A DNA stretch of 35,480 bases from Cycloclasticus sp. (GTDB lineage: Bacteria > Pseudomonadota > Gammaproteobacteria > Methylococcales > Cycloclasticaceae): assembly GCA_012959695.1 (NCBI GenBank), contig DUCS01000041.1, positions 21,133-56,612 of the forward strand. The letters are read 5' to 3'. The translations under genes were made by a program, and so were the position numbers. The notes under the pieces are model-generated. The model was not told the origin of the DNA. It saw only the letters and a program-made list of their open reading frames with translations, and made no database searches. Below, in pieces: positions 18,516 through 26,023 of this stretch; within the stretch, counting starts at the first letter, position 1, and every line of letters starts with the position of its first letter.

Positions 18516-19298
18516 ATGAGCATCGAAGACGTACAAAATAGACCTGATTCTAGAAATATGCCAATCAACAAAGTTGGTATTAAAGATATTCGTCACCCCT
18601 TTGTGTTTGTTGACAAAGAAGGCCATCAACAAGCGACTGTTGGTACATTTAATATGTCTGTTAATTTGCCGCATCATCAAAAAGGCACGCACATGTCGCG
18701 TTTTGTTGCTCTTTTAAACGAGGAGTGTCAGCAGCTTTCATTGCATAATTTCAGCGATTTACTGGCAATGATGACGCATAAACTCGAAGCCGATACCGGC
18801 TACATGACCGCTGAGTTTTTATATTTTATCAACAAATCCGCACCGGTTACTGGCGTTAAAAGCTTGCTTGATTATCAGGTTAAACTTGACGGCCAATGGT
18901 CTAAAAGTAAGACGCGTATAAACATCACCGTTGTGATCCCCGTCACCAGTTTATGCCCTTGTTCTAAGAAAATATCCGACTATGGCGCGCACAATCAGCG
19001 CTCACATATTACGGTTAACGCAACGACCCATGGCGATGTGTTCGTTGAAGACATCATTCAATTAGTTGAACAACAAGCATCCAGCGAACTGTACAGCTTA
19101 CTAAAAAGGCCTGACGAAAAATACGTGACTGAGCGCGCATACGACAACCCTAAGTTTGTTGAAGACGTGGTCAGAGATGTAGCCAACGCGCTGAATCAAG
19201 ACGAGCGCATTCTAGCGTACACATTAGAAGCCGAAAATTTCGAATCCATACACAATCACTCCGCTTACGCGGTGATTGAAAACAACAAATCAACCTAA
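18516..19298 (+). CDS. folE2: GTP cyclohydrolase FolE2 (type IB)
   Basis: It converts GTP to 7,8-dihydroneopterin triphosphate, the first step of tetrahydrofolate synthesis, and belongs to the metal-flexible, zinc-sparing family unrelated in sequence to FolE. The family signature [20 protein letters not shown] carries C147 and H159, and H246 is near the C-terminus (SIHNHSAY). These are the same numbers I recall for the Neisseria enzyme. At 260 residues it is typical. There is no evident ribosome site before the ATG. It lies 30 bases after dxs and 20 before pckA. In some bacteria folE2 is induced by zinc limitation; no clear Zur site is seen here. Confidence 0.95.
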
Positions 19299-19318
19299 AC
19301 AATACCGGAGTTCCAACA

Positions 19319-20920
19319 ATGTCTAGCACTTTAGACCTAAGCCAATACGGCATCACCAATGCATCAGAGATTATTCATAACCCATCTTTCGATGTTTTAT
19401 ATGAGGAAGAAACCCGTGATGACCTAGTTGGCTATGAAAAAGGTACCGTGACCAATCTTGGCGCCGTGGCCGTCGATACGGGCATCTTTACAGGCCGCTC
19501 ACCTAAAGATAAATACATCGTGATGGATGACGTGTCGCGTGACACTGTGTGGTGGTCTACTCAAGGCAAAAACGATAACAAGCCGCTTTCAAAAGAAAAC
19601 TGGAACAATCTGAAATCATTGGTCACTGAACAGTTATCTGGACAGCGATTATTTGTTGTGGACACCTACTGTGGCGCAAACAAAGACACCCGTTTAGCCG
19701 TTCGATTTATTGTTGAAGTGGCATGGCAGGCCCATTTTGTTAAAAACATGTTCATTCGCCCAAGCGAAGAAGAGTTCGCTACGTATGAGCCTGACTTCGT
19801 TGTGTTAAATGGCGCCAAAACCAACAACCCCAACTGGAAAGAGCAGGGCTTAAATTCTGAAAACTTCGTTGCCTTTAACTTAACTGAAAAAATGCAACTG
19901 ATTGGCGGCACTTGGTACGGCGGCGAAATGAAAAAAGGCATGTTCAGTATGATGAACTACCTGCTCCCTCTTCGCGGCATGGCCTCTATGCATTGCTCTG
20001 CTAACATTGGCAAAGATGGTGACGTTGCTATTTTCTTTGGCTTATCAGGCACCGGTAAAACCACCCTATCAACCGATGCTAATCGTCAACTGATTGGCGA
20101 CGATGAACACGGCTGGGACGACGACGGTGTATTCAATTTTGAAGGCGGCTGCTATGCTAAAGTCATCAACTTAAGCGCTGAAGATGAACCAGAAATTTAT
20201 GGCGCGATTCGTCGTGACGCTTTATTAGAAAACGTGACCTTATCAGACGATAACGTTATTCAGTTCGCGGATAATTCAAAAACTGAAAACACACGTGTCT
20301 CTTACCCAATTGATCACATTGAAAACATCGTTAGGCCTGTCTCTAAAGGCGGCCACGCAAAAAAAGTCATCTTCCTAACCGCCGATGCTTTTGGCGTAAC
20401 ACCGCCTGTCTCTAAGCTAACTGCAGAACAAACTAAATACTATTTCTTGTCTGGTTTCACCGCCAAGTTAGCAGGCACAGAGCGTGGCATTACAGAACCA
20501 ACACCGACCTTCTCTGCTGCCTTTGGCGCTGCTTTCTTATCATTACACCCAACTAAGTATGCTCAAGAATTAGTGAAGCGGATGGAAGCCGTTGATGCGC
20601 AAGCTTACTTAGTAAACACTGGCTGGAATGGCACGGGCAAACGCATATCCATTAAGGATACTCGCGGCATCATTAATGCTATTTTAGACGGCTCGATTGA
20701 AAATACCGACACAAAGCACATCCCGTATTTCAATCTTGAAGTTCCAACGTCATTAGAAGGAGTGCATAGCAACATCCTAGACCCACGCGATACATACGAA
20801 GATGCTGCTGAGTGGGACAAACGTGCTAAAAATCTAGCCGGACTCTTTGTTAAAAACTTTGCAAAATACACCGACACCGACGAAGGCAAATCACTTGTAG
20901 AGGCTGGCCCGACGCTTTAG
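19319..20920 (+). CDS. pckA: Phosphoenolpyruvate carboxykinase (ATP)
   Basis: It converts oxaloacetate and ATP to phosphoenolpyruvate and CO2, the entry to gluconeogenesis. Family blocks are [10 protein letters not shown], the P-loop [13 protein letters not shown] with K247, the metal-binding [20 protein letters not shown], and [15 protein letters not shown]. The 533 residues match the ATP-dependent, not the GTP-dependent, family. A good ribosome site, CGGAG, lies 8 bases before the ATG. It is transcribed after folE2 and ends at a strong terminator. It faces mdh, which makes its substrate. Confidence 0.97.
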
Positions 20921-21007: not shown

Positions 21008-21039
21008 AAAAAAAAAGCCATGCATTCGCATGGCTTTTT
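21008..21039 (-). terminator. Terminator after mdh (bidirectional form)
   Basis: The 12-bp stem AAAAAGCCATGC (21012-21023) with GCATGGCTTTTT (21028-21039) has an ATTC loop. Its A-run (21008-21016) gives nine Us on the minus strand, right after the mdh stop at 21059. It can also back up the pckA terminator. Confidence 0.9.
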
Positions 21040-21058: not shown

Positions 21059-22036
21059 TTAAAACAGGTGCTTCACACCATCGCGCTCTTCTTTTAATTC
21101 ATTTTCAGTTGCCGTCATTCTTTCGCGGCTGAAATCATTGATTTCAAGACCTTGGACGATTGAATATTCACCGTCTTTAACCGTGACAGGGAACGAATAA
21201 ATCAAACCTTCTTCAATTCCGTAACTTCCGTCAGTCGGTATAGCCATGCTAACCCAATCACCGTCCGCAGTACCTTGAACCCAAGTACGCATATGATCAA
21301 GTGCAGAACTCGCCGCAGACGCTGCGCTAGATAGACCGCGGGCTTTAATAATTGCCGCTCCACGTTGTTGAACAGCCGGGATGTAATCATCTGAATACCA
21401 GCTTGCATCAATTTTAGACAACGCATCTTCACCGTTGATTAACGTATTGTGTAAATCGGGGTATTGCGTTGCTGAGTGGTTGCCCCAAATAGTCATTTTA
21501 GTAATGTCTGTGTTATGAGAACCTGTCTTTTCAGCCAATAAGCTCATTGCACGGTTGTGATCCAAACGTGTCATCGCTGTGAAGTTACGCGGGTTTAAAT
21601 CGGGCGCATTGTTCATCGCAATTAATGCATTCGTATTCGCTGGATTACCAACAACTAACACTTTAACATCGCGTTTAGCTACTTTATTTAATGCTTTACC
21701 TTGTACAGAGAAAATCGCTGCATTGGCTTCAAGCAGATCTTTACGTTCCATGCCTGGGCCACGTGGACGTGCGCCGACTAAGAATGCGAAATCGATGTCT
21801 TTGAATGCTACTTCAGGATCGTCAGAAATTAAGACGCTTTGTAATAAAGGAAACGCGCAATCATTCAATTCCATCACGGCACCTTCAAGTGCACCTAGAG
21901 CTGGTGTGATTTCTAACAGGTGTAAACAAATCGGTTGGTCAGGGCCTAAAAAGTCGCCTGACGCAATACGAAATAATAGTGAATACGAAATTTGACCAGC
22001 GGCGCCAGTAACAGCTACATGAACAGGTGCTTTCAT
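21059..22036 (-). CDS. mdh: NAD-dependent malate dehydrogenase (type 2)
   Basis: It oxidises malate to oxaloacetate with NAD+ in the TCA cycle. The dinucleotide motif TGAAGQI is at 10-16. Substrate arginines are R92 and R98 ([11 protein letters not shown]) and R162, and the catalytic pair is D159 (TRLDHNRA) and H187 ([11 protein letters not shown]). The protein is of the 325-residue kind found in many non-enteric proteobacteria rather than the shorter E. coli type. I chose the ATG at 22036 because AAGGAG (22052-22047) stands 10 bases before it. A TTG at 22045 would be only one base from that site. The last fumarate/malate step pairs with the fumarase at 6226. Confidence 0.96.
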
Positions 22037-22090
22037 TTCTAACAATCTCCTTAATAAAAAATAGAATTATAGCTTAAAATTGATATGCAT

Positions 22091-22402
22091 TTAACGTTGC
22101 TTGAGAATGTTTTTTAAGTCGTAATGATATATAAAACCCGGCAACGCAAAAACGACAAAGAGGCAAAGGGTAACGACATAAAACTCCCAATCTTGCTCGC
22201 TCAAAACACCCATGGTTTTATATTCTAAAATCAAACCCGAAGCAAACGAAGCCGTATACCAGACGAGCCATTCAAACCAACGAAGCCAGCCAGGTTTATA
22301 CGCGACCGCTTTAATACAAAACAACTTATTACTTAGCCACGCTAAATTAGCAGCGACAATAGAAAAAATTAGAAATATATAAATGGAATATTGATTAATC
22401 AT
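22091..22402 (-). CDS. DUF2818 family membrane protein
   Basis: This 103-residue inner-membrane protein of the DUF2818 type has three predicted membrane segments (about 6-24, 42-60, 75-92). It carries the family pattern AANLAWLSNKL, KPGWLRWFEWLVWY and WEFYVVTLC-x-FVVFALPGFIY. Its function is unknown to me. As I recall, the family usually sits at the end of the NADH dehydrogenase (nuoA-N) operon. Here it lies 26 bases after tRNA-Leu and before mdh, with no nuo gene nearby. The start ATG has only a weak site (GACTGG). Confidence 0.8.
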   Translation of the reverse strand: MINQYSIYIFLIFSIVAANLAWLSNKLFCIKAVAYKPGWLRWFEWLVWYTASFASGLILEYKTMGVLSEQDWEFYVVTLCLFVVFALPGFIYHYDLKNILKQR

Positions 22403-22428
22403 CCAGTCACTAACAGCCTTTTTATATT

Positions 22429-22515
22429 TGGTGCCGAGAGCGGGACTTGAACCCGCACGTCCATAAGGACACTACCCCCTCAAGATAGCGTGTCTACCAA
22501 TTCCACCACCTCGGC
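22429..22515 (-). tRNA. tRNA-Leu (anticodon GAG)
   Basis: This is a class II tRNA of 87 bases with a long variable arm. The minus strand starts GCCGAGGTGGTGGAATTGGT, has the anticodon loop CTTGAGG, a variable arm GTCCTTATGGAC, and the T loop TTCAAGT, and ends with an encoded CCA (22431-22429). GAG reads CUC and CUU codons. It is 9 bases downstream of secG, the usual gammaproteobacterial place. Confidence 0.97.
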
Positions 22516-22524
22516 GACAATTAA

Positions 22525-22926
22525 CTATTCAGGAATAGTCACTTCTACGTCAGCAGGTCTCATTCCTTCAACATCTGCCCCAGCTTTTGAGCCCATAGAC
22601 GTATCATTAATTAAGTCGGCAGGCGTTGTTTCTGTTATTAATCCCGCAGGCGTGTCAGACAGTCTATCGATAATATTATCAGGTCCTGTTCTATTACCAC
22701 CTAAATAGGCTAGTGTTAGACTGGTGGTGAAAAACAACGCTGCCAAGATGGCTGTAGAACGCGTCAAGAAGGATGAAGAACCTTTTGAACCAAATACGGT
22801 ACCCGATGCACCACTACCAAAAGCCGCACCAGCATCCGCACCTTTACCGTGCTGAATTAAAATCAAACCAATCATCAGTGCCGCAATAATGACGTGTACT
22901 GATAAAACAATCGCAAACAAACTCAT
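22525..22926 (-). CDS. secG: SecYEG translocon subunit SecG
   Basis: This is the small inner-membrane subunit of the Sec translocon. There are two membrane segments (about 3-24 and 56-76) joined by the conserved loop IQHGKGADAGAAFGSGASGT, followed by FGSKGSSSFLTR. The acidic C-terminal tail (77-133) is of low complexity and variable in the family. AAGGAT precedes the ATG. It lies between tpiA and tRNA-Leu, a standard order. Confidence 0.95.
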   Translation of the reverse strand: MSLFAIVLSVHVIIAALMIGLILIQHGKGADAGAAFGSGASGTVFGSKGSSSFLTRSTAILAALFFTTSLTLAYLGGNRTGPDNIIDRLSDTPAGLITETTPADLINDTSMGSKAGADVEGMRPADVEVTIPE

Positions 22927-22990: not shown

Positions 22991-23731
22991 TTATGCCTTC
23001 TGACAGATTGAAATAAAGGCTTTCGCATCCAAAGATGCACCTCCAATCAAACCACCGTCTATATCTTCTTGCCCAAACAATAATGATGCGTTGTCTGGTT
23101 TAACGCTTCCACCGTATAAAATCCTAAGCTCGATGGCTGAGTCTTTACTTCTATTATCAACTAGACCGCGTATAAACGCATGCACAGCCTGAGCTTCTTC
23201 AGGCGTGGCAGTTAAGCCTGTGCCGATGGCCCAAACGGGCTCATAAGCTAAAACCAATCGCTTTAAATCGACTTTTTTATTGTCCAATAACGCACCAATC
23301 TGGTCCGCTATAACATCAAACGTATTACCCGATTTATAATCTATTTCCGTTTCACCAACGCAATACACAGGCACTAAGCCTGCCTTTTGAGCCGCCAACA
23401 CTTTTAAAACTAATGCTGCGTTTTTTTCATGAAACAACACGCGTCTTTCCGAATGCCCTACCAGCACCCATCGACAACCGATTTCCGCCAACATATCAGC
23501 TGAAACCTCACCGGTGTATGCGCCTGACGCATGCTCAGAAACAGTCTGAGCACCTACCGTTATTTTTGACGCGGCCACTCGTGCAGCATCTATATAAACG
23601 GTGGGGACGCAAACGCCAACTTCGCATTGCATTTTATCATCAATAGCCGCTTCAATTGCATGCAATAGATCACTTGTTAACCCAAGTGAGCCATTCATCT
23701 TCCAATTTCCAATAACCAGTGGTTGACGCAT
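22991..23731 (-). CDS. tpiA: Triosephosphate isomerase
   Basis: It interconverts dihydroxyacetone phosphate and glyceraldehyde 3-phosphate. Catalytic residues are K11 (GNWKMN), H93 (VLVGHSERR) and E164 (LAYEPVWAIGTG). The phosphate loop ILYGGSVKPDN and the C-terminal GGLIGGASL are present. The start is one of two adjacent ATGs. I prefer 23731, which gives MRQPLVIGNWK as in the family and 246 residues, with GAGAAG 4 bases upstream. The frame also extends to a GTG at 23743. It is preceded by a terminator-like hairpin after glmM, so it may have its own transcript. Confidence 0.97.
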   Translation of the reverse strand: MRQPLVIGNWKMNGSLGLTSDLLHAIEAAIDDKMQCEVGVCVPTVYIDAARVAASKITVGAQTVSEHASGAYTGEVSADMLAEIGCRWVLVGHSERRVLFHEKNAALVLKVLAAQKAGLVPVYCVGETEIDYKSGNTFDVIADQIGALLDNKKVDLKRLVLAYEPVWAIGTGLTATPEEAQAVHAFIRGLVDNRSKDSAIELRILYGGSVKPDNASLLFGQEDIDGGLIGGASLDAKAFISICQKA

Positions 23732-23746
23732 CATGCTTCTCACACT

Positions 23747-23799: not shown

Positions 23800-25140
23800 C
23801 TAAACATCAAGCAACCGTTCAACTGTTTCACTCAGCTCCAGCGCTAATGACTCAACTAATGCTAAGTTTTCACCTTCAACCATCACTCGAACCAATGGCT
23901 CAGTGCCTGACGGCCTGAGTAACACCCTGCCACTACCATTCAGTGTGCTTTCAACTTCCTTTACCGCAACGGCTATCTCATCCGTCATGACAAACTTAAC
24001 GCCCCCCTTCAGCTTCACATTAATCATGCGCTGTGGGTACTTTTGAATATCACTCTTTAATTCGTGTAAGGATTTTGACTCACCCGCCATCGTTTCAAGC
24101 ACCTGTAAGGCGGATATGATGCCATCACCCGTTGTCGTTCTATCTGCGCAAATAATATGGCCAGAACCTTCACCGCCTAAAATTGAATTTGACTCTTTCA
24201 TCAACTGAATCACGTGTCTATCACCGACGGCTGACCTCAACAAATCAACGCCTAATCTATTTAATGCGTGCTCCACACCCAAATTAGTCATTAGTGTTCC
24301 AACCACTGTAGAGCCTAGGCAGCCTTTGTCTAATCGAGTTTTTGCCAAAATATACAGTATTTCGTCGCCATCAAGCACTTCACCTAAATGGTCAACCATT
24401 ATTAGTCTATCGCCATCGCCATCTAAGGCTACGCCAAAGTCTGCAGCATGAGACAGGACCGCTTCGGTAAGAGCTTTAGGACTTGTCGCGCCACAGCCAT
24501 CATTAATATTCACGCCATTCGGTTCAACACCAATTTTCACCACCTCTGCACCCAACTCGCTAAAGACAAAGGGTGCAATGTGATAGGTGGAACCGTGCGC
24601 ACAATCGACGACCATTTTTAATCCTGATAAGTCCATCATCGGAGGAATGGTGCTTTTGCAAAACTCGATATAACGGCCCGCCGCATCTTCAACGCGGCTC
24701 GCTTTACCTAAACTAGGGGACTCGACCACCACAAGCGGCTCATCCATTTTTTGTTCTATCGCGTACTCAATATCGTCCGCTAATTTTTTACCTTCACTAG
24801 AAAAGAACTTAATGCCGTTATCGTAATGTGGATTATGCGAGGCACTAATAACAATACCCGCATTGGCACGTAGTGTCCGAGTTAGATAAGCAATGCCGGG
24901 GGTCGGCATGGGGCCAAGCAAATGAACGTCTGCGCCCGCAGCTACTAGACCCGCCTCAAGCGCTGATTCAAACATATAGCCGGATATACGCGTGTCTTTG
25001 CCAATAACAATCTTACAATGGCCTTGCTCTTCAAATACTTTACCGGTTGCCCAACCCAACTTTAAAATAAATTCAGGTGTAATTGAACCTTTCCCCACTG
25101 CGCCTCGAATGCCGTCTGTACCAAAATATTTTTTTGTCAT
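23800..25140 (-). CDS. glmM: Phosphoglucosamine mutase
   Basis: It converts glucosamine 6-phosphate to glucosamine 1-phosphate for UDP-GlcNAc, peptidoglycan and lipopolysaccharide. The opening [11 protein letters not shown], the phosphoserine loop VISASHNPH with S101, the metal loop DGDGDR (240-245) and the C-terminal [17 protein letters not shown] are all seen. The 446-residue product from the ATG at 25140 matches the family. The frame runs on upstream to 25170 but would then overlap folP. It lies 7 bases after folP, in the conserved ftsH-folP-glmM run. Confidence 0.97.
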
Positions 25141-25147
25141 GCCATTC

Positions 25148-26023
25148 TCAGTTCGCAGATTGAACTGCATTATATATTTTTAATGCGTCGGATGTTTGTG
25201 CTACATCATGAACCCTAACAATTGATGCGCCATTCATCACCGCCATAAGTGCAGCTAATACGCTGCCGATGACTCTCTGATCAACCGATTTATTTAATAT
25301 TTCACCCAACATAGATTTTCTTGATAAACCGGCTAATATTGGGCAGCCGTGGCTGTTAAATGAATCGAGATGAGCCAGCAAACTTAAATTATGTTGTAAG
25401 GTTTTACCGAAACCAAAACCTGGGTCTAAAATAATATTTTCTTTCGCTATTCCAACCGCTTCGCATGCTTTTATTCGCTGAATGAAAAAATCATTAACTT
25501 CTTCAACCACATTTGCATAACACGGTTTATCTTGCATCGTTTCAGGCTTATCTTGCATATGCATTAAACAGACAGGAACACCCAAACTCGCGGCCATCTC
25601 TAACGAACCTGGTTGCCTCAAGGCATACACGTCGTTGATGATGTTTGCTCCCGCTGAAATCGCAAACTTCATCACTTCTGGCTTACTGGTATCAATTGAA
25701 ATCTGAACATCAGAGGCTGAGCGAATACCCTCAATAACAGGTATCACTCTCGATAACTCTTCTTCGATAGACACTGCTGTCGCATTGGGACGTGTTGATT
25801 CGCCGCCCACATCAATAATGCTAGCGCCCGCACCAATCATTAATTCTGCTTGCTCAACGGCAGCATTGACTACTGCAAACTCTCCACCGTCCGAAAAAGA
25901 GTCCGGCGTAACATTAAGAACCCCCATAATATGGGGGTTCTTTTGTTTCAAAAATGTACCGGGGAAACCCAGCCTTGCTTTACGGTTGCTCAGCAGGCCC
26001 ACCAACAGTTGGTTTGGTTTCAT
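25148..26023 (-). CDS. folP: Dihydropteroate synthase
   Basis: It condenses p-aminobenzoate with dihydropterin pyrophosphate in folate synthesis and is the sulfonamide target. Conserved blocks are [60 protein letters not shown] and the C-terminal VRVHDV. The start is uncertain. The ATG at 26023 lies 44 bases inside the end of ftsH and leaves 32 residues before MGVLN, longer than the roughly 16 in E. coli. GTG or TTG codons further in are alternatives. A perfect 12-bp inverted repeat covers the codons for MGVL. Confidence 0.95.
25916..25942. repeat. Perfect 12-bp hairpin inside the start of folP
   Basis: AAGAACCCCCAT (25916-25927) and ATGGGGGTTCTT (25931-25942) are exact complements around a 3-base centre. 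In the folP mRNA this GC-rich stem covers the codons from KNPHI to MGVL. It has no proper T-run in the sense direction, so it is more likely an mRNA structure than a terminator. It lies about 40 bases after the ftsH stop. Confidence 0.6.

Follow-up and report, generated by a model that had tools for sequence, protein, structure and literature searches.

An intact DUF2818 gene beside tRNA-Leu in Cycloclasticus and the probable loss of a neighbouring complex I operon

Complex I genes are the usual neighbours of the DUF2818 family. In a stretch of Cycloclasticus sp. DNA of 35,480 nucleotides (contig DUCS01000041.1), referred to as the window, a DUF2818 gene follows a tRNA-Leu gene directly, which raises the question whether a nuo operon once stood between the two and why the small gene was kept. 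The features of the locus are as follows.

21012..21039, scored on both strands, terminator-like hairpin beyond mdh (consensus scan only)
21059..22045, minus strand, mdh (malate dehydrogenase), the downstream neighbour in Cycloclasticus and the sister family f7
22091..22402, minus strand, DUF2818 gene of 103 aa with ATG start (ORF and PF10993 match, E=1.1e-29), a predicted three-helix membrane protein
22403..22428, minus strand, 26-base spacer between tRNA-Leu and DUF2818, the position of nuoA-N in outgroups
22429..22515, minus strand, tRNA-Leu with anticodon GAG, bordering the ancestral nuo locus on the left
22525..22926, minus strand, secG (PF03840, E=1.8e-21)
22991..23743, minus strand, tpiA (PF00121, E=8.4e-89)
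23800..25170, minus strand, glmM, named by eye from the translation

On the minus strand the order reads glmM-tpiA-secG-tRNALeu(GAG)-DUF2818-mdh, with zero nuo genes between tRNA-Leu and DUF2818. The original prediction, that DUF2818 lies 26 bases past tRNA-Leu without an intervening nuo gene, was confirmed by the coordinates of the ORF, the tRNA and the gap. The mdh gene starts 45 bases past DUF2818. The order from tpiA to mdh is common to the Cycloclasticus loci with a long enough contig, except that of G011, and to the sister family f7, and because of this recurrence the arrangement is not due to chance. No terminator-like site was found in the 26-base spacer by the consensus scan, so that a single tpiA-secG-tRNALeu-DUF2818-mdh transcript is plausible from the sequence; the hairpin at 21012-21039 is likely the end of the transcription unit.

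For the ancestral arrangement, 20 loci of the class carrying both nuo and DUF2818 were opened. The gene order secG-tRNALeu(GAG)-nuoA..N-DUF2818, which had been named in the original prediction, is real: it is present in 17 of the 20 loci, and among 80 named DUF2818 loci, 49 have nuoN at most 500 bases upstream of the gene. A glmM match was found upstream of tpiA in most of the opened outgroup loci. In 12 of the 20 a tRNA-Met follows DUF2818, a feature that is not universal there. Compared as a possible remnant, the window shares tpiA-secG-tRNALeu(GAG) and the strand with the ancestral locus on the left flank, and on the right flank tRNA-Met is missing after DUF2818, with mdh in its place. As the right flank is also altered, the locus underwent more than one rearrangement. 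From these class-level outgroups we infer the former presence of nuo at the site, which speaks against the objection that relatives never had nuo here, with the reservation that nuo between tRNA-Leu(GAG) and DUF2818 was seen in no examined member of the window's order.

Genome-wide searches with NuoH (PF00146) as the only complex I marker covered 18 Cycloclasticus genomes, of which 10 are good and two (G001 and G007) consist of a single contig. NuoH was detected in 1 of the 18 (G011), in none of the 10 good genomes, including G001 and G007, and not in the window's own genome, a draft of 80% completeness. NqrA is present in 16 of the 18, and the window's genome carries a complete nqrA-F in a row, with six subunits over the NCBIfam cut-offs; next comes an ApbE-like protein with a score under its cut-off. 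Of the two fates proposed for the operon, excision and relocation, loss is supported by the missing NuoH match in 17 of the 18 genomes, among them the two single-contig ones, and relocation is not. NuoE/F/G-like matches near mdh in three Cycloclasticus loci were considered as a nuo remnant and rejected, the large subunit in L102 being formate dehydrogenase alpha; some Cycloclasticus loci carry this subunit and a NuoF-like subunit beside mdh (L102:11465-15875).

The nuo operon of G011, the sole genus member with nuo, is of the E. coli type with a fused NuoCD and lies beside tRNA-Leu(UAA) (L216/L217, G011:C24:21000-60000). It has no DUF2818 beside it, so that nuo elsewhere with its own DUF2818 copy was not encountered in the genus. 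On the tRNA side, its flanking sequence shares about 75% identity with other genus members, which makes contamination of G011 unlikely and a later gain of nuo possible. NqrA was not found in the G011 genome (83% complete). Between tRNA-Leu(GAG) and DUF2818, G011 has an inserted ORF of 286 aa (L010:460-1320) without a Pfam match and, judged by eye, with a secreted-like start. In G001 (C1, L258:11974-12077 and 19293-19457), 104 bases that overlap the tRNA-Leu(UAA) end recur at a distance of about 7.3 kb with 94% identity; the pair resembles the repeats that border an integrated island.

Relatives that retain nuo gave a divided picture: class outgroups show the ancestral order, whereas nuo-bearing members of the order mostly carry an E. 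coli-type copy elsewhere. Except for G019, NuoH of the order relatives groups with that of E. coli (SH-aLRT 100) and not with DUF2818-linked NuoH. A fused NuoCD occurs in the nuo loci of order relatives that hold the gene, and NuoD is separate from NuoC at most ancestral-type loci. Where nuo loci of the order were opened, neither tpiA, secG nor DUF2818 was found beside nuo. The complex I of the order is thus, in most members that have one, a distinct enzyme of the E. coli type encoded at other loci, and not the lost copy.

The same gap was found in two other families of the class. In f59 (G251, G493) and f68 (G394) the order is tpiA-secG-tRNALeu(GAG)-DUF2818-tRNAMet, a nuo-shaped gap with both flanks kept; in G493, rimP-, nusA- and infB-like ORFs, named by eye, are next in line past tRNA-Met. 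NuoH was not found in these three genomes, and the gap is therefore recurrent, which counts families showing it and not independent losses. NqrA is present in f59 and had no match in G394 (58% complete). Three further loci (L143, L146 and L155) were rejected as nuo losses, as NuoH occurs elsewhere in their genomes, which indicates separation of nuo and DUF2818 instead of loss. In Methylomonas-type genomes, which are without ancestral nuo, DUF2818 follows prfB-lysS; the 498-aa protein ahead of it, considered as a quinone enzyme, is lysyl-tRNA synthetase. In one Methylococcales MAG (L133:1041-10288), genes for Rrf2, suf, a class V aminotransferase, a NifU-like protein, a Rieske protein, prfB and lysS lie between tRNA-Leu(GAG) and DUF2818.

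In a draw of 369 genomes from the class, 66 carry DUF2818 proper, not counting symporter-like matches. Of these 66, 58 have NuoH, as do 264 of the 303 genomes without DUF2818 (Fisher p=1), figures that are descriptive because related genomes are not independent; in turn, DUF2818 is missing from 264 of 322 nuo-bearing genomes. DUF2818 is tied to nuo by position, not by presence. Many genomes have a second, weak DUF2818 match in an ORF of about 600 aa, mostly under the cut-off; these matches were set aside. One such weak match in the window's genome lies inside a 577-aa protein that by eye resembles a sodium:solute symporter (L002:697-2430).

The gene itself is intact, as originally claimed, with a full-length ORF in the window and no internal stops in 16 Cycloclasticus genomes. 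The median dN/dS of DUF2818 in the genus is about 0.17, an estimate resting on 17-18 pairs, since synonymous sites are almost saturated (median pS 0.74) and few pairs are usable. For comparison, dN/dS in Cycloclasticus is 0.15 for SecG, 0.17 for TpiA and 0.035 for Mdh; that of nuo-linked DUF2818 is 0.14 (Thioalkalivibrio) and 0.11 (Competibacter and Contendobacter), and that of lysS-linked DUF2818 0.12. The proposed check for purifying selection where nuo is missing thus yielded a value like those of SecG and TpiA, which supports a retained function; the persistence shows that a function exists but does not identify it. Frames broken by internal stops or splits were found in genus g8 of family f8 (G164:C1:3532162-3532359, G166:C60:120293-120490, G124:C1:2436132-2436329 and G024:C1:1107333-1107601), and these copies are apparently decaying. 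In G014, DUF2818 is absent from the 388 bases between tRNA-Leu(GAG) and the contig end; the contig of G009 ends too early to show the gene. Together, the broken g8 frames and the G014 gap indicate that DUF2818 is dispensable in places.

The window protein matches PF10993 with 103.3 bits over model positions 1-93 of 93 (curated cut-off 25 bits). In an alignment of 77 sequences it keeps the invariant E44, E60, W72 and F74 and the nearly invariant E73, A86, P88 and G89; P21 is replaced by A. The AlphaFold2 model (pLDDT 88.6) has helices at 2-23, 38-64, 72-85 and 87-102 and predicts a three-helix bundle with helices long enough for three membrane passes. Foldseek with this model gave no match at E<=0.001, only generic helix-bundle matches, and the best VIA structural match (Z 5.2) is in the range of unrelated helical bundles. 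The sequence profile found nothing significant among solved structures (best E 0.14), and among the papers searched none was found that names DUF2818 or treats this locus.

The original interpretation largely holds up in these tests. The reading that we favour, with a probability of roughly three in four, is that Nqr took the place of a lost nuo operon and that DUF2818 was kept for a membrane role independent of complex I. The DUF2818 tree is in its favour, as the copies of Cycloclasticus and family f7 form one clade in it (95/83). The ancestor would have carried glmM-tpiA-secG-tRNALeu(GAG)-nuoA..N-DUF2818. Na+-NQR would have taken over NADH:quinone oxidation in the window's lineage, after which the entire nuo operon would have disappeared, leaving its two functional flanks, tRNA-Leu and DUF2818, side by side. 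DUF2818 would have been retained as a small inner-membrane protein with an activity that does not need complex I, and would now probably be read with mdh from the tpiA-secG-tRNALeu transcript. Both the order of events, nqr first and nuo loss second, and the complex I-independent role are what we infer. Since the same gap occurs in other bacteria, DUF2818 probably has an independent function; our best guess, offered tentatively, is an accessory or stability factor of a general kind in the respiratory membrane.

More doubtful is a role as a general accessory of the NADH-oxidising respiratory membrane, serving either complex I or Nqr depending on the bacterium, by which DUF2818 would survive repeated nuo loss beside it. 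Similarly doubtful is a rival in which DUF2818 can act together with any NADH:quinone oxidoreductase and today serves Nqr. NqrA is present in all checked DUF2818-bearing genomes without ordinary NuoH, save the incomplete bins G258 and G394, but none of the loci read showed an nqr gene next to DUF2818. Any lineage that loses complex I is expected to have Nqr, so that this co-occurrence is not independent evidence. It is unlikely that DUF2818 serves complex I alone and is slowly decaying as a relic in Cycloclasticus. Its position next to nuoN in most outgroups and the broken copies in the order's genus g8, whose member G024 is without NuoH, would fit a relic; the 16 intact Cycloclasticus genomes, with a dN/dS no looser than that of SecG or TpiA and close to that of nuo-linked copies, do not, nor do the intact genes of family f7, the intact lysS-linked genes of Methylomonas-type genomes or the many nuo-bearing genomes that do without DUF2818.

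It is improbable that nuo was never at the site and that DUF2818 arrived at tRNA-Leu by transfer or rearrangement. The different right flank and the lack of any order genome with nuo at the site would agree with such an arrival, but strand, left flank and order match the outgroups minus nuo, and in f59 and f68 the gap recurs between two preserved flanks. Also against it, a single clade with the order's other DUF2818 copies was not rejected (p-AU 0.515). Least probable is that nuo is present in the window's strain and was missed in the incomplete draft. The nuo of G011 lends this some substance, but that copy is E. coli-type beside tRNA-Leu(UAA) and not ancestral, and NuoH is absent from the two single-contig and all ten good genus genomes.

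Under the favoured reading, the locus separates the DUF2818 family from complex I, would mark the former place of the ancestral nuo operon and shows that most complex I of the order is a different, E. coli-type copy. Nuo-less bacteria with DUF2818 are natural complex I deletions, in which the role of DUF2818 can be tested free of complex I. Compared with the gammaproteobacterial outgroup nuo locus, the window has the same left flank, strand, order and DUF2818, but is without any nuo gene and has mdh in place of tRNA-Met after DUF2818. Its protein matches the whole PF10993 model over the curated cut-off, but the gene stands in a genome without complex I. That an Nqr-bearing lineage loses nuo is ordinary; of interest is that DUF2818 has stayed in place in several families. 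Na+-NQR takes the place of complex I in respiratory chains such as that of Vibrio (PMC4014592), and likewise nqrA-F is present and NuoH absent in the window's genome. In contrast to such chains, a former operon neighbour, DUF2818, appears to persist at the old site in the window's lineage, marking the position of nuo.
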